A stretch of DNA of 42,439 bases from a bacterium. Lineage in GTDB: Bacteria > Krumholzibacteriota > Krumholzibacteriia > LZORAL124-64-63. The stretch spans positions 1 to 42,439 of the forward strand of contig WJIQ01000226.1 in assembly GCA_014730255.1 (NCBI GenBank). The letters are read 5' to 3'. The notes under the pieces were generated by a model. The model saw only the letters and a list, made by a program, of their open reading frames with translations, did no database searches and had not been told where the DNA came from. A program made the position numbers and the translations under genes. Positions 1,569-37,174 of this stretch are shown piece after piece (the first letter of the stretch is position 1; each line of letters starts with the position of its first letter).

Positions 1569-2620
1569 GGGTTCAGCGGTCCTTGTGTCAGTCCGGTCGT
1601 CTCGGGCCAGCCGCAGACGAGGTTCAGGTTCTGCACCGCCTGGCCGGCGGCGCCCTTGACCAGGTTGTCGATGGCGGCCAGGGCGATCACCAGGCCCGTG
1701 CGGTCGTCCCAGGTCGCGTGGACATCGCAATAGTTGGAGCCGCGGACGGCCTTGATCGAGGGTGGTCCCGCCGTCCAGCGCAGGAACGGTTCGTCGGCGT
1801 GATCCTCGGCGTAGGCCGCGGCGATGGTGGCGTCGTCGAGGCCGGTCGCCCGGGTCGCGGCGGGCCGGGCGTAGCAGGTGGCGAGGATGCCGCGATCGAC
1901 CGGCAGGAGATGCGGGGTGAAGAGCGCCTGCACCTCGTGACCGGCCACCTCGGCGAGCGCCGCCTCGATCTCCGGCGTGTGCCGGTGGCCGCGCAGACCG
2001 TAGGCCCGGAAATCGCCGAACAGCGACGGGAAGTGGGTGGTCGCCTTGGCCGTGGCCCCCGCGCCGGTCACCCCCGACTTGGCGTCGATCACCAGGCCGG
2101 TGGGTTCGACGAGGCCGCGGCGCAGCAGCGGGGCCAGCGCCAGGATCGACGCCGTCGGATAGCAGCCGGGGTTGGCCACCAGCCGGGCGCCGGTGATCCG
2201 GTCGCGGAACAGCTCGGGCAGGCCGAAGACCGCGCCGGCGAGCCGTTCACGGGCGCGGTGCTCCTGGCCGTACCACGTGGCGTACTGGTCCGCATCGGGC
2301 AGGCGGAAGTCGCCGGACAGATCGATGATCGGCGGGCCGTCGGGACCCTGCGTCGCGACGAAATCCATCGACGCGCCGTGGGGCAGGGCGAGCAGGATGG
2401 CGTCGAGGCCGTCGGGCAGGTCGTCGACCGTCACCAGGGTCTGGTCGCAGATCCCGGCGAACGCCGGGTGGATGGCGCTGAACCGCTCGCCGGCGCGGCC
2501 CCGCGAGGTGATCGCGGCGATCTCGACGCGCGGGTGCGCGGTCAGGATCCGCACCAGCTCACTGCCGGTGTAGCCGGTGGCGCCGACGATGGCGATGCGG
2601 GCGCGCGCGTGGTCGGTCAT
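1565..2620 (-). CDS. argC: N-acetyl-gamma-glutamyl-phosphate reductase ArgC
   Basis: ArgC reduces N-acetylglutamyl phosphate to the semialdehyde with NADPH, the third step of ornithine synthesis. The 351-aa protein has the N-terminal nucleotide-binding motif GATGYTGSE (residues 13-21), the catalytic cysteine Cys153 in NPGCYPT, and the GHRHTPEIE segment typical of the family. Length is normal. Its ATG overlaps the argD stop by 4 bp and its stop overlaps the argJ start by 4 bp, so translation of the operon is probably coupled throughout. Confidence 0.97.
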   Translation of the reverse strand: MTDHARARIAIVGATGYTGSELVRILTAHPRVEIAAITSRGRAGERFSAIHPAFAGICDQTLVTVDDLPDGLDAILLALPHGASMDFVATQGPDGPPIIDLSGDFRLPDADQYATWYGQEHRARERLAGAVFGLPELFRDRITGARLVANPGCYPTASILALAPLLRRGLVEPTGLVIDAKSGVTGAGATAKATTHFPSLFGDFRAYGLRGHRHTPEIEAALAEVAGHEVQALFTPHLLPVDRGILATCYARPAATRATGLDDATIAAAYAEDHADEPFLRWTAGPPSIKAVRGSNYCDVHATWDDRTGLVIALAAIDNLVKGAAGQAVQNLNLVCGWPETTGLTQGPLNP

Positions 2621-3822
2621 GACGTCTCCTTCCTGGCCGCGGCCGCATCGACGGCGGCCAGGAAGACCTCGCGGATCACGTCGAGGTCCTCCTCGGGGAT
2701 GTTCAGGGCCGGCACGAAGCGGATCACCCGCTCGGCCGTGCAGTTGCCCAGGACACCGCGATGCATCATGTCGGTCACGAGCTCCTTGCCGGCGAAGGCG
2801 AGCTCGACGCCGATCATCAGGCCGCGTCCGCGCACGTCGCGGATCGCCGGCCGGGTGGCCGCCGCCTCACGGAGCTGCGCGCGGAACGCCTCGCCGACCC
2901 GGGCGGCCCGGGCCGGCAGGTCCTCGGCCGTGATCACGCCGAGCGTGGCCTCGGCCGCGGCGCAGGCCAGCGGATTGCCGCCGAAGGTCGTGCCGTGGTC
3001 GCCGGGCGTGAAGGCCGCGGCCACATCCTCGCACGCCAGCACCGCCCCGATGGGCACGCCCCCGCCGAGGGCCTTGGCCAGGACCAGGACGTCGGGCTTC
3101 ACCCCGGCGTGGTCGTGCGCGTTGAAGCGGCCGGTCCGGCCCACCCCGCACTGGATCTCGTCCAGCACGAGCAGCGCGCCGCGCTCGTCGCACAGCCGGC
3201 GCAGGTCGCGGAGCATCTCGTCGGGCACCGCGCGGACGCCCCCCTCGCCCTGGACCGGCTCGATGATCACCGCGGCCGTGCGGTCGTCGACGGCGCGGTC
3301 GAGGGCCTCGCGGTCGCCGAACGGCAGCTGCTCGAACCCGGGCACCAGCGGCAGGAAGGGCTCGCGCTGCTTCGCCGTGTGGGCGGAAAGCGCCCCCATG
3401 GTGCGGCCGTGGAAGCAGCCGGTGAACGACAGGATCCTTGCACCGCGGCCCTGGCGACCGGCCCAGCGACGCGCCAGCTTCAGCGCGCCCTCGACCGCCT
3501 CGGTCCCGCTGTTGGTGAAGAACACGCGGTCGAGCCCGGTGAGCGCGGTCAGACGTTCGGCCAGCCGCGCCTGCACCGGGGTGTGGTAGAGGTTCGTGCA
3601 GTGGATCAGCTGCTGCGCCTGGGACGTGAGCGCCTCGACCACGGCGGGGTGGCAGTGCCCGAGCGCGTTGACGGCGATGCCGGCGAGGGCGTCCACGTAC
3701 TCGCGGCCGTCGGTGCCCCGCACCCGCGAGCCGCGCCCCTCGACCAGCGTGATCGGATAGCGCCCGTACATGGGGAAATGGCACCGGTCGGTGATCTCCT
3801 GGGAGAGGTCGCGCTCAGTCAT
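2617..3822 (-). CDS. argD: Acetylornithine aminotransferase ArgD
   Basis: This is a class III PLP-dependent aminotransferase that converts N-acetylglutamate semialdehyde to N-acetylornithine, with glutamate as amino donor. The protein is 401 aa. Landmarks are NSGTEAVEGALKLAR (PLP phosphate contacts), the aspartate of VLDEIQCGVGRTG, and the PLP lysine Lys250 in LAKALGGGVP. Its start overlaps the end of argB by 8 bp and its stop overlaps the argC start. A role with succinylornithine or other omega-amino acids is possible in this family, but the position between argB and argC argues for arginine synthesis. Confidence 0.96.
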   Translation of the reverse strand: MTERDLSQEITDRCHFPMYGRYPITLVEGRGSRVRGTDGREYVDALAGIAVNALGHCHPAVVEALTSQAQQLIHCTNLYHTPVQARLAERLTALTGLDRVFFTNSGTEAVEGALKLARRWAGRQGRGARILSFTGCFHGRTMGALSAHTAKQREPFLPLVPGFEQLPFGDREALDRAVDDRTAAVIIEPVQGEGGVRAVPDEMLRDLRRLCDERGALLVLDEIQCGVGRTGRFNAHDHAGVKPDVLVLAKALGGGVPIGAVLACEDVAAAFTPGDHGTTFGGNPLACAAAEATLGVITAEDLPARAARVGEAFRAQLREAAATRPAIRDVRGRGLMIGVELAFAGKELVTDMMHRGVLGNCTAERVIRFVPALNIPEEDLDVIREVFLAAVDAAAARKETS

Positions 3823-13279: not shown

Positions 13280-13504
13280 GGGGTCCTCCTTCTCGGGTTT
13301 CGGGACGTCAGGGCGAATCCGTCGCGAGGCGACGGAGGCGCTCCCAGGCTCAGTTGGCGTCGGGGAAGACATCTTACCACATATCGCCGACAAGATCGAT
13401 TCACCTTCTCGCGCTTTCCACCGGGACCGTGAGCCCGGACCGAAGCGCTGACGACCGTTCCGGGCGACGGGCGATCAACCATCGCGGACACCTCGCCCAG
13501 GAGG

Positions 13505-13730
13505 CGACAACGCGCGGAGACAGCGATATCGATGGCCAGAGAAGCCGGGATTCCTTCCCATGCGCTTCGTCCGAGGGCGGGGGTCCGCGGGGCCGACGAC
13601 GACAGACAACCGGTGGTGACACGACCACGATAGGAGATGAGGAGGGGCAGGCCGGTAACACGCATCTGTTTTCATGACGGCCGCTTACGCCGGCCATCAG
13701 GAAGCAGCAACAATCTTCAAGGCACATCCC
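13505..13730 (-). repeat. Dispersed 226-bp repeat, copy B
   Basis: It aligns with 1-226 without gaps, about 73 % identical. In this copy the minus-strand hairpin TGATGGCCG / CGGCCGTCA (loop GCGTAA) is nearly perfect and is followed by TGAAAACAGATG. It lies 12 bp after the stop of the gene ending at 13743. The neighbouring stretch 13280-13504 should hold the promoter of the gene at 13279 and shows nothing else I recognise. Confidence 0.7.
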
Positions 13731-13742
13731 GTCGGCCGCCGG

Positions 13743-14012
13743 TCAGTCGGCGTGCTCGAAGACCATGGTCTTGACGTCGACGTTCTCCAGCTTCTCGAGA
13801 GCCGCCACCATGCCCTCGACGTCGGACTGCGGGCCAGCCGTCTCCAGCAGGACGATGCCCGCCGGAGAACAGTAATCGTCGGTGACCGTGTGCAGGCCGA
13901 CCCGCGTCTTGATGCTGCAGCCGTACTCGGTGAGGATCCCCTGCACGTCCGGCACCTTGCCGTGCCGATCCTGGATGTGGATGCCGACGATGATGTGGTT
14001 CTGCTTGATCAT
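13743..14012 (-). CDS. TM1266-like ferredoxin-fold regulator (iron-only hydrogenase system regulator family)
   Basis: This 89-aa protein has the ACT/NikR-C-like pattern of the TM1266 family: HIIVGIHIQDR, VQGILTEYGCSIKTRVGL, GIVLLETAG, then VAALEKLENVDVKTMVF. Relatives usually sit next to FeFe-hydrogenase maturation genes and probably sense a small molecule or metal; no hydrogenase gene is visible here. GAGAGGTGA precedes the start. Repeat copy B follows the stop. A -10-like TATAAC lies about 50 bp upstream on the minus strand (14061-14066). Confidence 0.8.
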   Translation of the reverse strand: MIKQNHIIVGIHIQDRHGKVPDVQGILTEYGCSIKTRVGLHTVTDDYCSPAGIVLLETAGPQSDVEGMVAALEKLENVDVKTMVFEHAD

Positions 14013-14144
14013 GATTTCACCTCTCGATGGGTTCCTGGAGCGCGGGGTGCGATGCGTCCCGTTATACCAGTGACGGGCGGAGCATACCAGCTGTGCCAGT
14101 GCCTGGCGTCGGCGACCGTCATCAACCCCTGCCCGGCAGTCTCC

Positions 14145-14531
14145 TCATCGCCCGACCGCGGTGGTCCGTCGCCGCCACAGCCGGCGCACCAGCAGGCCGT
14201 AGATCACACCATTGATCGCCAGCACGCCGACGCCGAGGACGATCTGCCACTGCGGCGTCAGCCCCGGCGGATACACGAGCGGAACGAGGTAGTGGTCGAT
14301 GAACCCGCCGCTGTAACCAGCCTGCCCGGCCTCGTGTCGCAGGCGGACCTCGAGGGGAGTCAGCGGGCAGATCCAGCCGGTGAACTCGATGAGCGCCCCC
14401 CAGACCCAGCACGGCAGGTGCAGCCAGGCGAGCCGCGGCCAGCGCAGCACCACGAGACCGCCGAGGACCACGAAGAGGATGAACAGCAGGTGGACCACGA
14501 GGACCACGTCGGCCAGCAGGCGCGCGCTCAT
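14145..14531 (-). CDS. DUF2784 family membrane protein
   Basis: This 128-aa protein has three to four predicted membrane helices: LLADVVLVVHLLFILFVVLG, LAWLHLPCWVWGALIEF, a loop with PLTPLEVRLR, and WQIVLGVGVLAINGVIYGLL. The WICPLTPLE and GGFIDHYLVPLVYP segments are typical of DUF2784, whose function is unknown. The ribosome binding site is poor. It follows the propeller gene (stop 14589) by 57 bp. Confidence 0.85.
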   Translation of the reverse strand: MSARLLADVVLVVHLLFILFVVLGGLVVLRWPRLAWLHLPCWVWGALIEFTGWICPLTPLEVRLRHEAGQAGYSGGFIDHYLVPLVYPPGLTPQWQIVLGVGVLAINGVIYGLLVRRLWRRRTTAVGR

Positions 14532-25975: not shown

Positions 25976-28090
25976 ATGTCGCTCACGCCCACGCCCGCCC
26001 GCACCCCCATCCTCGACCTCGGCTCGGTCGAGGAGAAGCGGGAGGAGATCCGGCGCTACTTCCACGACACCTACGACGTCTACGAGAAGCTCTTCGAGGT
26101 CATGGCCGAGGACGAGGCCTACTACCGCCGCGCCGACCCCCTGCGCCATCCGCTGATCTTCTATCTCGGCCACACCGCCGTCTTCTACGTCAACAAGCTG
26201 GTGCTGGCCAAGTTCACCGAGCGCATCAACCCGAAGTTCGAGTCGATGTTCGCCATCGGCGTGGACGAGATGAGCTGGGACGATCTCGACGAGCAGAACT
26301 ACGACTGGCCGCCGGTGGCCGAGGTCTGGGAGTACCGCCGCAAGGTGCGGGCGATGGTCGACGAGCTGATCTCCGGGATGCCCCTGTCCATGCCCATCAC
26401 CTGGGACTCGCCGTTCTGGGTGATCATGATGGGCATCGAGCACGAGCGCATCCACCTGGAGACCAGCTCGGTGCTCATCCGACAGCTGCCGCTGGACCTG
26501 CTGCGCGAGCACCAGGACTGGCCGGTGTGCCCCGACCGCGGCGAGGCGCCCGCGAACGAGCTGCTGCCCGTGCCGGGCGGACGGGTCACCCTGGGCAAGA
26601 GCCGCGAGCACGGCCTGTACGGCTGGGACAACGAGTACGGCCAGCTCGAGGCGAGCATCCAGACGTTCGAGGCCGCGAAGTACCTGGTGAGCAATGGCGA
26701 GTTCCGCGAGTTCGTCGACGCCGGCGGCTACCGCGAGCCCCGCTGGTGGACCGAGGAGGGCTGGGGCTGGCGCGAGTACACCCAGGCCGAGGCCCCGCGC
26801 TTCTGGGTCGAGGGCCCCGACGGCCAGTGGCGCCTGCGCTGCATGGTGCAGGAGATCCCCATGCCCTGGAACTGGCCCGTCGAGGTCAACCAGCTCGAGG
26901 CCAAGGCCTTCTGCAACTGGAAGGCCGCGCAGACCGGCCGGCCGGTGCGCCTGCCCACCGAGGAGGAGTGGTACCGCCTGCTCGACCACGCCGGCCTGCC
27001 CGACCAGCCCGAATGGGACCGCGAGCCCGGCAACATCAACCTCGCCCGGTACGCGTCGTCGGTGCCGGTGACCGACCATGCGCAGGGCGACTTCCACGAC
27101 GTCATGGGCAACGTCTGGCAGCACACCGAGACCCCGATCACCGGCTTCCCCGGCTTCCAGGTCCACCAGCTGTACGACGACTTCTCCACGCCGACCTTCG
27201 ACACCAAGCACAACCTGATCAAGGGCGGCTCTTGGATCTCCACGGGCAACGAGGCCACCCACGACAGCCGCTACGCCTTCCGCCGGCACTTCTACCAGCA
27301 CGCCGGCTTCCGGTACATCGTCTCCGACGCGCCCGTGGTGATCCGCGACGACGTCTACGAGACCGACGAGCTGGTGGCCCAGTACTGCGAGTTCCACTAC
27401 GGCCGCGAGTACTTCGGCGTGCCCAACTACAACATCCGCCTCGCCGAGATCTGCGCCGAGCTGATGGCCGGCCGGCCCACCGGTCGCGCCCTCGACCTCG
27501 GCTGCGCCACCGGCCGCGCGTCGTTCGAGCTCGCGCGCACCTTCGACCACGTCACCGGCATCGACTTCTCGGCGCGATTCATCCGCATCGGGCACGAGCT
27601 GCAGGAGAAGGGCCGCAGCCGCTACGCCATCCGCGAGGAGGGCGAGATCATGAGCTACCACGAGATCTCGCTGGCCGACCTCGACCTGGACGACGTGCGC
27701 GACCGCGTGGAGTTCTGGCAGGGCGACGCCCACAACCTCAAGCCGCAGTTCACCGGCTACGACCTGGTCCTCGCCGCCAACCTCATCGACCGTCTCTACG
27801 AGCCGGCGAAGTTCCTCGCGCGCATCCACGAGCGGATGAACCCCGGCGGCCTGCTGGTGATCACCTCGCCCTACACCTGGCTCGAGGAGTTCACGCCGCA
27901 GGAGAAGTGGATCGGCGGCAAGAAGGTGGCCGGCGAGAACGTGACCACGCTCGACGGGCTCGAGGAGGAGCTGAAGGACCGGTTCACCCGGCGCGGCGAG
28001 CCGCGGGACGTCGAGTTCGTGATCCGCGAGACGGCGCGGAAGTATCAGCACTCGGTGGCGCAGCTCACGGTGTGGGAGTACACGCCATAG
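25976..28090 (+). CDS. ovoA: 5-histidylcysteine sulfoxide synthase / 4-mercaptohistidine methyltransferase OvoA
   Basis: OvoA makes ovothiol A, a methylated thiohistidine antioxidant: it joins cysteine to histidine by an oxygen- and iron-dependent step and later methylates the imidazole. The 704-aa length and domain order fit: an N-terminal DinB-like domain with the HX3HXE iron motif (His156, His160, Glu162 in EHERIHLE), a central FGE/sulfatase-modifying-type domain (VMGNVWQHTETPITGFPGF, LIKGGSWISTGNEA), and a C-terminal methyltransferase with ALDLGCATGRASFELA. GGAGGT precedes the ATG. The lyase for the second step is not in the window. The gene ends just before a long hairpin. Confidence 0.95.
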   Translation: MSLTPTPARTPILDLGSVEEKREEIRRYFHDTYDVYEKLFEVMAEDEAYYRRADPLRHPLIFYLGHTAVFYVNKLVLAKFTERINPKFESMFAIGVDEMSWDDLDEQNYDWPPVAEVWEYRRKVRAMVDELISGMPLSMPITWDSPFWVIMMGIEHERIHLETSSVLIRQLPLDLLREHQDWPVCPDRGEAPANELLPVPGGRVTLGKSREHGLYGWDNEYGQLEASIQTFEAAKYLVSNGEFREFVDAGGYREPRWWTEEGWGWREYTQAEAPRFWVEGPDGQWRLRCMVQEIPMPWNWPVEVNQLEAKAFCNWKAAQTGRPVRLPTEEEWYRLLDHAGLPDQPEWDREPGNINLARYASSVPVTDHAQGDFHDVMGNVWQHTETPITGFPGFQVHQLYDDFSTPTFDTKHNLIKGGSWISTGNEATHDSRYAFRRHFYQHAGFRYIVSDAPVVIRDDVYETDELVAQYCEFHYGREYFGVPNYNIRLAEICAELMAGRPTGRALDLGCATGRASFELARTFDHVTGIDFSARFIRIGHELQEKGRSRYAIREEGEIMSYHEISLADLDLDDVRDRVEFWQGDAHNLKPQFTGYDLVLAANLIDRLYEPAKFLARIHERMNPGGLLVITSPYTWLEEFTPQEKWIGGKKVAGENVTTLDGLEEELKDRFTRRGEPRDVEFVIRETARKYQHSVAQLTVWEYTP

Positions 28091-29655: not shown

Positions 29656-30825
29656 TCACGAGTCCAGTCCATCACCATCGGCCAGCCGCTGCGCCTCGCG
29701 CATCACGCGCTGCAGCGGGACCCCCGCACGCTCGCTACAGCGCACGCAGTCCTCGTACTCCGGCGTGCGCCGGACCGCGCCCGACGGCAGCGTGACCGTC
29801 TTGATGGCGACCTCGCCCCAAGACGTGGTCACCGCGCCGGTCGTCCGCGGCAGCATGATCCGTTCGACCCGCTGGTAGCGCACGCCGATGGTCGTGGTCT
29901 CCTCGAGGATCATCGCCGCGACCTCGTCGCGGACCGCCGTCGGCACCAGGACCTCCAGCCGGTGGCCCGGCCGGCCCTTCTTCATCAAAAGGGGCGTGAT
30001 GGTCACGTCGAGGGCGCCGGCGTCCAGCAGGCGCCGCTGCAGGTGCTCGCCGAGCAGCTCGCCGCTGACGTCGTCGAGGTTGGCCTGCACGACCCAGACC
30101 TCGCCCGCGGACGCGGTCACGGGCCGGGCCAGGGCCAGACGCAGGCAGTTGGGCTGCTCGAGGTCGCGCGAGCCGGCGCCGTAGCCCGAGGCGACGGTCG
30201 TGTGCTCGCCGATGGTGAACGACGGGTCCAGCGCGCGCAGGATCGCCGCGCCGGTGGGCGTGGTCATCTCCGCGGCGATCGGACCGGGCACCGTCGGCAT
30301 GCCCTGCAGGATACGCTCGGTGGCCGGCGCGGGCACGGGCAGACGGCCGTGGTCGCAGTCGACGAATCCGTGGCCGGTGCAGATCGGTCCGCAGACGACG
30401 CCGGCGAGGTCGAGTCGGCTCAGGAGCAGCGCCGTGCCCACGATGTCGAGGATCGAGTCGACCGCGCCGACCTCGTGGAAGTGCACCTGTTCAACCGGGA
30501 CGCCGTGGACCGTGGCCTCGGCTTCGCCCAGGACGGCGAAGATGCGGCGTGCCAGGATGCGCGCGCCGTCGTCGAGGTCGGACCGGTCGATGATGGCGTG
30601 GATGTCGGCGAGGTGGCGCGCGACGGGCTCGGTCTCGTCGACCACCACGACCCGCGTGCACGCCAGGCCCCGGCGCGAGGTCCGGCCGATCTCGAGGGAC
30701 GCGCCGGCGAGGCCCAGCCGCGCAGGCAGGGAGGTCAGGTCGTCGGCGCCGCCGGCGAGGTCGACCAGCGCACCGAGCATCATGTCGCCGCTGATGCCGC
30801 TGAAGGGCTCGATCTTGAGGATCAT
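29656..30825 (-). CDS. larC: Nickel insertion protein LarC (nickel-pincer cofactor synthesis)
   Basis: LarC places nickel into the pyridinium bis-thiocarboxylic mononucleotide, the last step of the cofactor used by lactate racemase. This 389-aa protein is a single full-length reading frame, unlike the frameshifted larC of Lactiplantibacillus plantarum. It shows MILKIEPFSGISGDMMLGAL at the start, VHFHEVGAVDSILDIVG, and TPLLMKKGRPGHRLEVL, all typical. A His/Asp-rich part (CTGHGFVDCDHGRLPVP) may hold nickel. The start overlaps the larB stop by 4 bp. It closes the operon that begins at 37174. Confidence 0.95.
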   Translation of the reverse strand: MILKIEPFSGISGDMMLGALVDLAGGADDLTSLPARLGLAGASLEIGRTSRRGLACTRVVVVDETEPVARHLADIHAIIDRSDLDDGARILARRIFAVLGEAEATVHGVPVEQVHFHEVGAVDSILDIVGTALLLSRLDLAGVVCGPICTGHGFVDCDHGRLPVPAPATERILQGMPTVPGPIAAEMTTPTGAAILRALDPSFTIGEHTTVASGYGAGSRDLEQPNCLRLALARPVTASAGEVWVVQANLDDVSGELLGEHLQRRLLDAGALDVTITPLLMKKGRPGHRLEVLVPTAVRDEVAAMILEETTTIGVRYQRVERIMLPRTTGAVTTSWGEVAIKTVTLPSGAVRRTPEYEDCVRCSERAGVPLQRVMREAQRLADGDGLDS

Positions 30826-31481
30826 CGGCGCATCCGTTCCGGATCGAGGATGCGGGCGGCGGCGATGGCCGCGCCGAATCCGTTGTCGATGTTCACCACC
30901 ACGAGGCCGTTGGCGCAGCTGGCGAGCATGGCGTGCAGCGCAGCGGTCCCGCCCTCGGCCACGCCGTAGCCCACACTGGTGGGCACGCCGATCACCGGTC
31001 GCCGCACCAGCCCCGACAGCACCGACGGCAGCGCCCCCTCGAACCCCGCCACGCAGATCACGACGTCGGACTCGCGGATGTCCGCGAGCGAGCCCATCAG
31101 GCGGTGGACGCCGGCCACGCCCTTGTCCACGTGCAGGCGCGTCTCGAGGCCGAGGAACCGCAGCACGGCCGCGCATTCGGCCACCACCGGCACGTCGGAC
31201 GTGCCGGCGGCGACGATCGCGACCGTCCCGTGGTCGCGTCGCGGGCGCTCCTCGCCCAGGAGCAGGGTCCGCGAGGCCGGGTCGTGGCGCAGGTCGTCGG
31301 CGGCGCCGGCGAGGGCCTCGGCCTTCGCCGCGTCGATCCTGGTCACCAGACCGCTCTCGCCCCGGGCGCGGAACGCGCCGAGGATCGCGCCGATCTGTTC
31401 GGTCGACTTGGACTCGCCGAACACGAACTCGGGGAATCCCAGCCGCCCGTCCCGCTCGAAATCGATGTCGTGGTCGTTCAT
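30822..31481 (-). CDS. larB: LarB, pyridinium-3,5-biscarboxylic acid mononucleotide synthase
   Basis: LarB carboxylates nicotinic acid adenine dinucleotide and releases AMP, the first step in making the nickel-pincer nucleotide. The 219-aa protein shows the AIR-carboxylase-like C-terminal domain (VAIVAAGTSDVPVVAECA, VVICVAGFEGALPSVLSGL, VIGVPTSVGYG, VVVNIDNGFGAA) and the LarB N-terminal segment LGFPEFVFGESKSTEQI. The start at 31481 is 14 bp after the larE stop. Its end overlaps larC. Confidence 0.95.
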   Translation of the reverse strand: MNDHDIDFERDGRLGFPEFVFGESKSTEQIGAILGAFRARGESGLVTRIDAAKAEALAGAADDLRHDPASRTLLLGEERPRRDHGTVAIVAAGTSDVPVVAECAAVLRFLGLETRLHVDKGVAGVHRLMGSLADIRESDVVICVAGFEGALPSVLSGLVRRPVIGVPTSVGYGVAEGGTAALHAMLASCANGLVVVNIDNGFGAAIAAARILDPERMRR

Positions 31482-31495
31482 CGTCTGCCTCGCGG

Positions 31496-32308
31496 TCAGC
31501 CCAGCGCACGGTTCAGCTTGCCGGACACGAATCCCTCCGGATCGATCTCCACGGTCGCGAACCCCAGGTCGGCGAACGCCGTGGCCAGGTCGGCCCGCAT
31601 CGCCTCGAGCCCGGCCACCTGGTCGCGCGGGACCTCGATGCGGGCATGGGTGCCGTGATGACGGACCCGGGACACGGCGAACCCTCGCTGCTCGAGCCAC
31701 GCCTCGCCGGCTTCGATCTGCCGTAGCTTCGCCCCGGTGATCTCGCTGAAGTAGGGGATGCGGCTGCTCAGACACGGGCTCGCGGGCTTCTCCCAGCACG
31801 CGAGGTCGAGGCGCCGGGCCAACTGGCGCAGCTCGTCCTTGGTGACCTCGCACTCGGCCAGCGGACCGCGGACCGCGAAGCGCGCCACCGCGCGCAGGCC
31901 GGGCCGGTAGTCGCCGTGGTCGTCGACGTTCTCGCCGCCGAGGACGTGCGCGAACCCGAGCTCCTGCCGGACCTGATCGAGCTGGTCGAAGAGGACCGAC
32001 TTGCAGTGGAAGCAGCGGTCCTCCGGGTTGGCGCGATAGCGCGGATCGTCGAGCTCGGTGGTCGCGACCACGCGCAGCGGGATGTCGTGGCGCGCGGCGA
32101 ACGCGACCGCCCCGTCGAGGTCGCGGCGCTTCAGGCTCGGCGAGTCGCCGACCACGGCCAGGCACCGGTCCCGCCCCAGGTGCCGGCGCGCGAGGTAGGC
32201 CACGAGCGAGCTGTCGACGCCGCCCGAGAAGGCGACCACGGCCGACGGGCAGGCGGCGAACCAGCGCTCGAGATCGGCCAGGATGGTGTCGATGCGATCA
32301 TGTGTCAT
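31496..32308 (-). CDS. larE: LarE, ATP-dependent sulfur transferase for the nickel-pincer cofactor
   Basis: LarE adenylates the biscarboxylic mononucleotide and swaps each carboxylate oxygen for sulfur. The 270-aa protein has the PP-loop SGGVDSS (28-34) and Cys179 in KPASPCLSSRIPY. That cysteine is at the place of the sacrificial cysteine of the L. plantarum enzyme, so this LarE may consume its own sulfur. The gene starts 12 bp after the DUF6599 stop and ends 14 bp before larB. Confidence 0.95.
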   Translation of the reverse strand: MTHDRIDTILADLERWFAACPSAVVAFSGGVDSSLVAYLARRHLGRDRCLAVVGDSPSLKRRDLDGAVAFAARHDIPLRVVATTELDDPRYRANPEDRCFHCKSVLFDQLDQVRQELGFAHVLGGENVDDHGDYRPGLRAVARFAVRGPLAECEVTKDELRQLARRLDLACWEKPASPCLSSRIPYFSEITGAKLRQIEAGEAWLEQRGFAVSRVRHHGTHARIEVPRDQVAGLEAMRADLATAFADLGFATVEIDPEGFVSGKLNRALG

Positions 32309-32320
32309 GAGCGACCTCGT

Positions 32321-33151
32321 TCAGGGAGCGGCTGCGGTCAGGATCTCGACCGCCCGGTCGAGATCGGCGAGGTCGGCCACGCCGAGCATCGAATCCTCGT
32401 CGCCCAGCAGCGCGACCACGCCCGAATAGGGGATCTCGCGCCAGATCAGCTGGCGGCCGTCCGGACGCTCCTGGCGATTCCAGCGTGCGGTGTCGCTCAG
32501 CAGAGCGCGGCCGGGCCGCAAGGTGAAGAGACGATACTCGGTACCGTCGGCGAGCGCATACGTGGCGTGCACGCAGCTCGACAGGTCCTCCAGGCCGAGG
32601 AACGCCCGCCCGGCGAAGGCCACCGTCCCGGACTGGCGCCCCTCGTCGGGCAGCTCGGCGAGCTGGGGTGGCAGACCATCCCGGCCGGGCAGTCCGGCGG
32701 CCACGTCCCCCAGCAACGACGCCAGCGACCCGGCCGACACGTCGCCACCGGCGATCTCGGCCTTGACGTAGAAGCGGTCCTTGAGCATGAGGCCGCGGTA
32801 CGGAGGCTGCAGCACGGCCGCCGCGCCGACGTCGGTGATCTCGGGCTCGTCGTCCGGACGTTCGCGCTCGTAGACGCCGAACGCGTCGAGGGGCCCGCCC
32901 ATGTCGTACACGCTGATGGTCACGTACCGGTCGCCCTGCTCGAGGTCCCGCACGATCAGCTCGCGGAAGCCGTAGCTCAGGAACAGGTCGGCCGCACCAT
33001 TGATGTACTCCCACAGATCGTCGCGACCGTATCGGTACTCCTCGTCCACGGCGGACCAGCCGTCGGGAACCGGGACGTGCACCACGTCCTGCTGAGCCGA
33101 CGCCGTCGTCGCGAGGACGAGCGCCATGGCGATGATCATCAGCATCCTCAC
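32321..33151 (-). CDS. Exported DUF6599 family protein
   Basis: This 276-aa protein has a signal peptide (VRMLMIIAMALVLATTASAQ). The rest fits DUF6599: YGRDDLWEYINGAADLFLSYGF, VTISVYDMGGPLDAFGVYERER, and DRFYVKAEIAG. Family members recur next to Fe-S membrane proteins but have no known role. I favour the GTG at 33151 because TAGGAGG lies 7 nt upstream; the ATG at 33145 is the alternative. That ribosome binding site overlaps the stop of the aldo/keto reductase, so the two are coupled. Confidence 0.82.
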   Translation of the reverse strand: MRMLMIIAMALVLATTASAQQDVVHVPVPDGWSAVDEEYRYGRDDLWEYINGAADLFLSYGFRELIVRDLEQGDRYVTISVYDMGGPLDAFGVYERERPDDEPEITDVGAAAVLQPPYRGLMLKDRFYVKAEIAGGDVSAGSLASLLGDVAAGLPGRDGLPPQLAELPDEGRQSGTVAFAGRAFLGLEDLSSCVHATYALADGTEYRLFTLRPGRALLSDTARWNRQERPDGRQLIWREIPYSGVVALLGDEDSMLGVADLADLDRAVEILTAAAP

Positions 33152-34583: not shown

Positions 34584-36230
34584 TCAGTCGCCGTATGGAT
34601 CACCGTATCCGCCGCCGGTCGGCGTCAGCAGCGGCTGGTTGTCGGGATGCCGGGCCTCCCCCGCGCTGGTGACGCGGATGGCGGCGCGGTCCCGGAACGG
34701 GCACTTGGTCTCGCAGATGCCGCAACCGGTGCAGCGGTCGGGATCGACGCGCGGGAACTTGAGCGTGCGGGTCGAGCCGTCGCGCTGGACGGCCTCCTCG
34801 AGCACGAAGGTGATGGCCTTGTCGGGCACCGGGCAGTGCTCCTCGCAGACGATGCACTCGCGGCCGTAGGCGTAAGGCAAGCAGCGGGTCGTATCGATCA
34901 CGGCCAGGCCGATCTTGACCTGCTTCTTCTCGTCGAGCGGCAGGGGCTCGATGGCGCCGGTCGGGCAGACCTGACCGCAGGCATGGCACTCGAACTCGCA
35001 CCAGCCGATCGCCGGCACCAGCACCGGCGACCACAGCCCCTCCAGGCCGGCCTCCGTCCACGTCGGCTGCAGACCGCCGGACGGGCAGGTCTGCATGCAC
35101 ATCCCGCACTTGACGCAGCGCGCGAGGAAATCGGGCTCGGCCCGGGCGCCCGGCGGCCGGATGAGCGACGGCTCGTAGGTCGCGGCCTGGCTCGCGGGCG
35201 TGATGCGCGCCATGGCCACCGCGCCGACCCCGGCCGCGACCGAGGCGAGCGCGCGCCGCTTGCCCACGTCCACCGAGCCGGACGACGTCCGCCGCCACGG
35301 CTCGACCCAGCGGAAGTCGAGCCCCTGACGGTCGCATGCGGCCACGCAGTTCCAGCAACCGAAGCACTCGGTGGCCAGCCACTCGTCGGGCTTCTCCGGC
35401 TGGGCGGCGGCCGGGCAGGCCATGGTGCACTTCTGGCACTGGTTGCAGGCCGAGGGGTCGCTGGTCAGGCGCAGCAGTGGCCGGCGCGAGACCAGCCCCA
35501 GCAGACCGCCCAGCGGACAGACGTACCGGCACCAGAAGCGGTTGCGCACGAGATTGAGCACGAGCGCGGCCACGAAGACCAGGAACACGACGTCGGTCCC
35601 GGTGAAGACGCGGATCTCGGTGGCGGTCACCCGCTCCTGCCACCAGCGGTAGAAGGGCTCGGTCACGTCGCGCAGATGCAGGCCGCCGAGGTGCGGGTCG
35701 CCGAGGTAGACGGCGTTGGACACCGCGCTGACCGTCACGTCGAGCGCCGGCAGGACGGTGAGCGCGAGGCTGCGGTACAGCAGGGCGAAGGGGTCGAGGA
35801 CGCCGGCCCACTGCACCCCGAAGACCGCCATCACCAGCAGGGCGATCACCACGAGGTACTTCGCGCGCTGCCAGACGCTGAACCCGGAGGTGCGCGGCCG
35901 CACGCGTCCGAACTGCCGGCGCAGGCTGCCGACCGCGTTGTGCAGCGTGCCGAACGGGCAGAACCACCCGCAGAACACGCGCCCGAGAATCAGCGTGACC
36001 ACGATCGTGACCGCACCGAGCAGCGAGATCCCCGCCAGCGTGTTCGACGACAGCCACGACGTGATCATGAGCAGGGGATCGAGGTCGAAGAAGGTGCTCA
36101 CCGGCGCCCCGGGCGCTGCGCCGTTGGCCGGCCGGTTGGCCGCCAGCAGCACCAGGAACAGGAGCAGCACCAGGGTCTGCACCCCGCGGCGGATCCAGAT
36201 GATCCTGCGGGCTCGCGCGGTCGCGGTCAC
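34584..36230 (-). CDS. Membrane polyferredoxin (NapH/RdxA-like 4Fe-4S protein)
   Basis: This 548-aa inner-membrane protein carries electrons across or along the membrane. An N-terminal helix is followed by further helices and the paired NapH-type motifs CGWFCPFGTLHN and CRYVCPLGGLLG. Then come CNQCQKCTMACP, CFGCWNCVAACD, a further Tat-like helix, CVKCGMCMQTCP, a degenerate group around CEFECHACGQVCP, CIVCEEHCP and CTGCGICETKCP, enough for about six clusters. The start is GTG at 36230, overlapping the DUF362 stop (GTGA). Confidence 0.92.
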   Translation of the reverse strand: MTATARARRIIWIRRGVQTLVLLLFLVLLAANRPANGAAPGAPVSTFFDLDPLLMITSWLSSNTLAGISLLGAVTIVVTLILGRVFCGWFCPFGTLHNAVGSLRRQFGRVRPRTSGFSVWQRAKYLVVIALLVMAVFGVQWAGVLDPFALLYRSLALTVLPALDVTVSAVSNAVYLGDPHLGGLHLRDVTEPFYRWWQERVTATEIRVFTGTDVVFLVFVAALVLNLVRNRFWCRYVCPLGGLLGLVSRRPLLRLTSDPSACNQCQKCTMACPAAAQPEKPDEWLATECFGCWNCVAACDRQGLDFRWVEPWRRTSSGSVDVGKRRALASVAAGVGAVAMARITPASQAATYEPSLIRPPGARAEPDFLARCVKCGMCMQTCPSGGLQPTWTEAGLEGLWSPVLVPAIGWCEFECHACGQVCPTGAIEPLPLDEKKQVKIGLAVIDTTRCLPYAYGRECIVCEEHCPVPDKAITFVLEEAVQRDGSTRTLKFPRVDPDRCTGCGICETKCPFRDRAAIRVTSAGEARHPDNQPLLTPTGGGYGDPYGD

Positions 36231-37174
36231 GACAGGACGCGCTCGACCGGATCGAGGGAGCGGAAGTCCATGGTGCCCAGGCCGCGCGCCTCGGCGGCGG
36301 CCACCGTCCGGATCGACCGCGGATCGCGACCCATCAACTCGGCCCCGAGCGCATCGAGGGCCACGACGTCGGTGCCGGCGGCCACGATGCCCCGCACCTC
36401 GACGTCGTCCGGATCCCCGCCCTGCGGACCGTGTCGCAGCAGCACGCGCACGGCGTCGATCACCGTCAGCCGCGGCTTCATGAACCCGGTGATGTCCGGC
36501 AGGCAAGCCTCCATGTTCTGGTGCCAGGAGCCACGGTTGCCCCCGATCACGCCCATGTAGTTCTTCATCGCCATCGACAGCCGGGTCAGGCCGTGGTGCT
36601 TGAGCACGGGCACGTTGATCACCAGGTCTGCCTCGACGATCTCCACGTACAGCGGCCAGGATTCGAGGAACTCGCCGCCGATCTTCATGTCGCGGAATCG
36701 CTTGCTGTCCAGGTAGACCATGCGGCCGCCGACCGCCTCGACACGGCCCTCGATGCCGCTGTTGCGGTAGCACTGCCGCGCCGGATGGCAGGGGTGATCG
36801 CCGACCTTGACCTCCTTGGCCCCGGCGTCCAGGCACAGCCGGGTCAGCGTGCTGACGACGTTGGGGTTGGTGTTGGCGGCCAGCTCGGGGCGCCGGTTCC
36901 AGCCGATGTTCGGCTTGATCCAGACCACGTCGCCCTTGCTGACGAAGCGGGTCATGCCGCCCAGCCCATCGATGGCCGCCTCGGTGAGCCGCGTCGCGGC
37001 CACCTCGAGGTCGGCGGTCGCGAGCGCCGACTCCTCCCAGCGGGCGATGGCCAGCTGCGCCGCCATGGGGTCGGCGAGCGCGGACCGGCGCAGCGCGGCG
37101 GCATCGGTCAGGAGCAGGCCGCCGCCGATCAGCGCGGAGGTGCGGATGAAGTCACGGCGGGAGGGACAGGACAT
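36227..37174 (-). CDS. Tat-exported DUF362 protein with LarA-like residue spacing
   Basis: This 315-aa protein has a Tat signal (SRRDFIRTSALIGGG) and one DUF362 domain. Seen in sequence: GDHP with His127, KHHG with His193/His194, MKNYMGVIGG with Lys204, and His218 in SWHQNM. The KN-x-x-G and following His are usual in DUF362, but the His in GDHP is not what I expect for the family. As I recall, LarA of L. plantarum uses His108, His174, Lys184 and His200 with the nickel-pincer nucleotide, giving spacings of 66, 10 and 16; here they are 67, 10 and 14. GGAGGT precedes the start. It is the first gene of the operon ending in larC. Confidence 0.88.
   Translation of the reverse strand: MSCPSRRDFIRTSALIGGGLLLTDAAALRRSALADPMAAQLAIARWEESALATADLEVAATRLTEAAIDGLGGMTRFVSKGDVVWIKPNIGWNRRPELAANTNPNVVSTLTRLCLDAGAKEVKVGDHPCHPARQCYRNSGIEGRVEAVGGRMVYLDSKRFRDMKIGGEFLESWPLYVEIVEADLVINVPVLKHHGLTRLSMAMKNYMGVIGGNRGSWHQNMEACLPDITGFMKPRLTVIDAVRVLLRHGPQGGDPDDVEVRGIVAAGTDVVALDALGAELMGRDPRSIRTVAAAEARGLGTMDFRSLDPVERVLS

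Follow-up and report, generated by a model that had tools for sequence, protein, structure and literature searches.

A gene for a DUF362 protein heads an operon that ends with the genes for LarE, LarB and LarC, in a bacterial genome in which LarA was not found, and it is this arrangement that is new here. The operon lies in a stretch of 42,439 nucleotides (the window; contig WJIQ01000226.1 of assembly GCA_014730255.1, phylum Krumholzibacteriota), and the protein encoded by its first gene can plausibly be placed in the LarA clan as a redox-linked member exported through Tat, one that may use the nickel-pincer nucleotide (NPN) in the lineages where its gene is linked to lar genes. The homology between DUF362 and LarA is already known; in fact, both belong to one Pfam clan, CL0471, and DUF362 was used as an outgroup in a paper of 2024 (PMC11770544). 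A recurrent DUF362-lar link in LarA-free genomes and an exported, polyferredoxin-linked form of the family were not found in the literature searched, which was mostly open-access. It has been reported that about 15% of surveyed genomes carry larB, larE and larC without larA, implying that the cofactor has users other than LarA (PMC11796402, 2024), and the presence of DUF362 in LarA-free lar clusters is the pattern expected of the clients postulated for these genomes.

The Operon and Its First Gene

The DUF362 gene opens a compact operon of seven genes on the minus strand, with LarE, LarB and LarC at its end (Table 1). Intergenic gaps do not exceed 15 bases, and two pairs of genes, DUF362/NapGH-like and LarB/LarC, overlap by 4 bases. 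The boundaries given for the DUF362 gene in the initial annotation are correct, and its strand is the minus one. LarE, LarB and LarC each score above the curated NCBIfam cut-off, and a search of the host genome (G000; 94% complete, 407 contigs) with Lar_N returned zero matches. Linkage to LarB, LarE and LarC, a trait of NPN-dependent enzymes, is present in the window, and it is not general in the subfamily to which the DUF362 protein belongs; a NapGH-like gene adjoins DUF362 in nearly all loci of this subfamily. Elsewhere in the window, a 704-aa ORF (25976-28090, plus strand) contains DinB, FGE-sulfatase and methyltransferase domains, an architecture known from the ovothiol synthase OvoA.

Table 1. 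Features of the DUF362-lar operon in the window (positions of the window; codons are those of the DUF362 gene).
Feature	Position	Strand	Remarks
DUF362 gene at the head of the operon (315 aa; fold predicted to be LarA-like)	36227..37174	(-)	ATG at 37174, stop at 36227
Twin-arginine (Tat) motif S-R-R-D-F-I-R-T, residues 5-12	37139..37162	(-)	Conserved in relatives
H127 codon, LarA H108 equivalent	36794..36796	(-)	Variable position in DUF362
C129 codon	36788..36790	(-)	Invariant (29/29) in the NapGH-linked DUF362 subfamily
H194 codon, LarA H174 equivalent	36593..36595	(-)	50/50 in DUF362
K204 codon, LarA K184 equivalent	36563..36565	(-)	50/50 in DUF362
H218 codon, LarA H200 equivalent	36521..36523	(-)	48/50 in DUF362, displaced by an indel in the other two
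NapH/NapG-like membrane polyferredoxin, 548 aa	34584..36230	(-)	Start overlaps DUF362 stop (GTGA)
Aldo/keto reductase, twin-arginine N-terminus, C-terminal 4Fe-4S motifs, 468 aa	33163..34569	(-)	
DUF6599 protein, hydrophobic signal-like N-terminus	32321..33151	(-)	
LarE, sacrificial sulfur transferase	31496..32308	(-)	TIGR00268, 289.6 bits (cut-off 150)
LarB	30822..31481	(-)	NF033503, 261 bits (cut-off 175)
LarC, nickel insertion	29656..30825	(-)	TIGR00299, 201 bits; NF052512, 141 bits; start overlaps LarB stop

By the curated cut-off, the window protein belongs to DUF362 (PF04015) across the domain, with a match covering positions 1-199 of the 200 of the profile (E 9.5e-51; 173.1 bits, cut-off 24). 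The Pfam profile search of this protein gave DUF362 and a weak TAT match, and no match to Lar_N (PF09861). The Tat motif is real, though the TAT_signal score (15.3 bits) is under the 22.7-bit cut-off: the protein carries a motif of the S/T-R-R-x-F-L-K type ahead of a hydrophobic stretch, and of RRDFIRT, all 29 relatives compared share R7 and F9, and at least 90% of them share R6. It is established that folded, cofactor-loaded proteins are Tat cargo (PMC5936819).

Predicted Fold and Relationship to LarA

The structure of the window protein was predicted with AlphaFold2 from a 50-sequence alignment (mean pLDDT 92.3, pTM 0.87), and the model is LarA-like, so that the fold does not speak against the initial annotation. 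When it was compared with the PDB by Foldseek, all 19 matches at E<1e-3 were LarA-family proteins, with probability 1.00 and a modest TM of about 0.45, and the next match in the list stood at E 4e-3. Sequence searches for a solved DUF362 structure found none. A second model, of a DUF362 protein from a Bacteroidota genome (G235), was of low confidence (pLDDT 57); the 15 best PDB matches to it came from the LarA family, only one of them at E<1e-3, and it was set aside as evidence on the fold.

The two families also meet in a Niallia protein that scores above the cut-off of NF052515, the NCBIfam model named 'nickel pincer cofactor-dependent isomerase, group 22', and that matches Lar_N with 35.7 bits (cut-off 23.3) as well as DUF362 with 28.3 bits (cut-off 24). 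At the level of profile matches, this protein is a bridge between them. It adjoins LarE, LarB and LarC and, like the window protein, lies above the DUF362 cut-off; it differs in its match to Lar_N, and a Tat motif was not seen in its N-terminus. The proteins of the LarA superfamily, in turn, share with the window protein the predicted fold, the link to LarB, LarC and LarE and the residues considered below, whereas the window protein is shorter, exported and devoid of a Lar_N match, and has an iron-sulfur membrane protein as its partner.

Candidate Active-Site Residues

In LarA, R75, K184 and H200 bind NPN, and D72, H108, H174 and K298 are catalytic (PMC7583248); K184 is the cofactor lysine (PMC7583248) and H200 the nickel ligand (PMC7583248, PMC11851776). 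The initial annotation had noticed three histidines and a lysine with LarA-like spacing in the DUF362 protein, and all four are indeed there, H127 (GDHPCHP), H194 (LKHHG), K204 (AMKNYMG) and H218 (SWHQN), at spacings of 67, 10 and 14. A loose form of this spacing pattern turns up in 0.34% of shuffled versions of the window protein, and homology, as judged from aligned sequences, is the better argument for the match than spacing statistics. In a profile-profile alignment of 53 DUF362 and 27 LarA sequences, made blind to the four residues, H127, H194, K204 and H218 fall on H108, H174, K184 and H200 of LarA (E 3e-4; GxH, pH, GGxK and nH), and smaller sequence sets gave the identical register for the first three. 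The NPN-binding lysine and histidine of LarA, K184 and H200, have their counterparts in register in K204 and H218. By homology, the four side chains would meet in one site.

The conservation of these positions is uneven. H194, K204 and H218 are, in the aligned set, family-wide residues of DUF362, and H127 is a variable site: the window protein has equivalents of both catalytic histidines of LarA, H108 and H174, and at the position of the first, histidine is found in only 8 of 50 DUF362 proteins, serine in 21 and asparagine in 17. The catalytic D72 of LarA aligns with N89, which is asparagine in 50/50. Position 94 is arginine or lysine in 49/50 and is a possible counterpart of R75, in a part of the alignment that is gapped and off by one. 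C129, two residues past H127, marks the NapGH-linked subfamily and may be relevant to the chemistry proposed below. NPN proteins lacking one catalytic histidine have been described: single-histidine LarA homologues are without the second, the H174 equivalent (PMC12611868). Most DUF362 proteins likewise miss one of the pair, with the difference that they retain the H174 equivalent and vary at the first histidine.

Taken alone, the residue argument is, as far as sequences go, one of homology within a known clan, and no proof of cofactor use. The genetic argument, for which the initial annotation had a single locus, is stronger: DUF362 is the LarA-fold protein found in or beside lar clusters of unrelated lineages in which LarA was not found.

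Linkage of DUF362 to lar Genes in Other Lineages

In family f1 of the host phylum, the order DUF362-NapGH-aldo/keto reductase-DUF6599-LarE-LarB-LarC recurs in two further genomes (G076 and G081), and a third (G083) has the identical gene order until its contig ends inside LarB; LarA was searched for in these three and in the host genome, and none was found. In Bacteroidota, one genome (G160) has DUF362-NapH-NapG-LarC-LarE-LarB, all on one strand, and two others (G235 and G239) have DUF362 of another, unrelated type, untagged and about 490 aa long, followed by LarC-LarE-LarB, a cluster that in G235 sits within a polysaccharide cluster. LarA was not found in any of these three genomes. A long, fully supported branch separates the DUF362 protein of G160 from the f1 group in the tree. 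On a plasmid of Streptomyces NBC_01450, DUF362 lies on the opposite strand 3.6 kb from LarE-LarB-LarC, in a region that also holds a DAHP synthase and an isochorismate synthase; a search of the plasmid for LarA gave none. The lar neighbours of other plasmid DUF362 proteins were searched as well, with no additional case. Two further loci may be mentioned here. In L025 (G006), genes for LarA and DUF362 are adjacent on one strand (859-2127 and 2121-3377). In L160 (G336), a membrane-anchored ORF upstream of LarE (13408-14271) has no Pfam match and, by eye, resembles the N-terminal half of DUF362, ending ahead of the KxH region.

It could be supposed that chance alone brought the genes together, lar cassettes having been transferred beside a DUF362 cluster a few times with no functional bond. 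The cassette is present in some f1 genomes and missing from others, and the DUF362 tree is discordant with the genus grouping, as would then be expected. However, a rough estimate puts the expected number of DUF362 genes within 8 kb of a LarC locus at about 0.008, and they were observed at 3 of 23 Bacteroidota LarC loci (P of about 8e-4, or 0.014 with G235 and G239 counted once); adjacency on the same strand is rarer still. An incidental linkage is improbable. Among 148 Bacteroidota genomes, LarC accompanies the DUF362 subfamily in excess of expectation, in 6/19 genomes with the subfamily against 6/129 without (Fisher p = 0.0012, with shared ancestry left uncorrected).

DUF362 Without lar, and lar Without DUF362

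The subfamily was tabulated in 43 genomes, whose lar status was scored by detection of LarC. LarC was undetected in 15, and the H/K/H triad is kept in all 15. Going by these sequences, the triad is no marker of NPN use, because genomes with LarC and those without it have the triad alike, and a dependence of the whole subfamily on NPN is contradicted by the 15 LarC-negative genomes. H127, for which the initial annotation had raised the question of lar linkage, does not follow it: this histidine occurs in 8/15 LarC-negative and 8/28 LarC-positive genomes (Fisher p = 0.18), in the direction opposite to such a link, and was rejected as a marker. Nor is it absent from all other lar-linked DUF362 proteins, since the position is histidine in the window, in G076 and in G160, phenylalanine in G081 and serine in G083. 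Many of the genomes are metagenome assemblies, so that a single absence of LarC is weak evidence. This does not hold for the Bacteroidota carriers of the subfamily, drawn with a 95% completeness filter, in which 13/19 are LarC-negative and the absence is not weak evidence. In the genus of the host, a genome of 4 contigs and 94% completeness (G058) has the subfamily and no detected LarC. Lar-linked and lar-free proteins of family f1 show scattered residue differences only, zero of them at candidate active-site positions.

A rival explanation is that DUF362 and NapGH form a nickel-independent, exported redox module, which would keep the triad, as an ancient trait of the clan in its entirety, for another ligand, and that LarE, LarB and LarC serve some other client, perhaps the aldo/keto reductase, perhaps an enzyme encoded elsewhere. 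The DUF362-NapGH pair is found with identical residues in genomes without detected LarC, and LarE-LarB-LarC occur with neither DUF362 nor LarA as a neighbor in four genomes (G067, G438, G213 and G433). However, this explanation does not account for the unrelated DUF362 types in or beside the lar clusters of several lineages where LarA was not found, nor for DUF362 being the sole LarA-fold protein of those clusters; we take it seriously as a possibility without thinking it probable. The control genomes of C. glutamicum and M. jannaschii contain LarC and neither LarA nor DUF362, and DUF362 is therefore not the sole alternative client of NPN.

That linkage is facultative, with DUF362-NapGH found with and without lar genes, would also suit a role in the handling of nickel or of the cofactor, as reductant, carrier or repair protein, rather than as an enzyme using NPN. 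An export signal on the DUF362 protein, set against the cytoplasmic synthesis of NPN, and the classic plasmid LarA operons, which have LarB, LarC and LarE without DUF362, make such a role highly improbable.

Several lar loci have contexts of their own. LarE-LarB-LarC lie within a surface-polysaccharide cluster in L081 (G067 C47; 2508-5180), where LarE is split over two frames because ambiguous bases break the reading, in a genome without LarA. In L169 (G438 C12; 4363-10448), which has neither LarA nor DUF362, a sugar isomerase, an MFS transporter and a Gfo/Idh-type gene stand immediately upstream of the three genes, possibly the pathway of another NPN client. LarC-LarE-LarB are found beside a convergent Tat-type aldo/keto reductase in L149 (G213, without LarA) and L159 (G433), and a reductase of this type is common to these loci and the window operon. 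On a plasmid of Rhizobium sp. CCGE532 (L154; 5338-10437), LarC-LarE-LarB and a nickel transporter lie downstream of a 594-aa protein that matches no Pfam family, and LarA is absent nearby. LarB-LarC without LarA have a conserved context in L093-L098 (families f2, f3 and f6), with a DusB-like gene before and a TPR protein and an ECF-type ATPase after (identified in L098), which suggests a housekeeping role or nickel uptake. Finally, six Bacteroidota genomes with no detected LarC (G125, G129, G145, G156, G187 and G218) encode proteins whose weak Lar_N matches start near profile position 50; these may be LarA-like proteins that work without NPN.

Proposed Working and Significance

The explanation that we prefer is that the window protein, which is remotely related to LarA in structure, uses NPN and is a client of the LarB, LarE and LarC of its own operon, to which we give a shade less than an even chance. 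On condition that the cofactor binds, the initial annotation had read DUF362 proteins of this type as a new, Tat-exported class of nickel-pincer enzyme, and this reading is supported in part; the LarA-like fold, the correspondence of residues and the operon link speak for this, while the linkage of H127 and a subfamily-wide dependence fell away. Against NPN use stand N89 in place of the catalytic aspartate, the variable H127, the modest TM of the model and the LarC-negative genomes.

From these parts we infer NPN binding, a substrate and an electron route. NPN would be synthesized by LarB, LarE and LarC and loaded in the cytoplasm, where K204 would hold it, with H218 as the nickel ligand and H194 as acid/base, and the folded holoprotein would be exported through Tat. 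In the periplasm, NPN would accept a hydride from a substrate that, by analogy with LarA, may be a 2-hydroxy acid or a sugar acid, and the electrons may reach the quinone pool via the NapGH-like iron-sulfur protein. On this reading, the DUF362 protein would work as a dehydrogenase or a reductase and not as a racemase. In its widest form, the proposal makes DUF362 a second branch of nickel-pincer proteins beside that of LarA, to be counted among the missing clients of genomes with LarB, LarC and LarE and without LarA, and makes the window protein an exported, quinone-linked NPN oxidoreductase performing net redox chemistry as opposed to racemization. In this form the proposal is tentative, and we consider it rather unlikely as a whole.

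The linkage of DUF362 to lar genes provides a concrete candidate family for the missing NPN clients, with several natural operons. If the proposal is true, nickel-pincer chemistry would reach exported, membrane-coupled redox enzymes.
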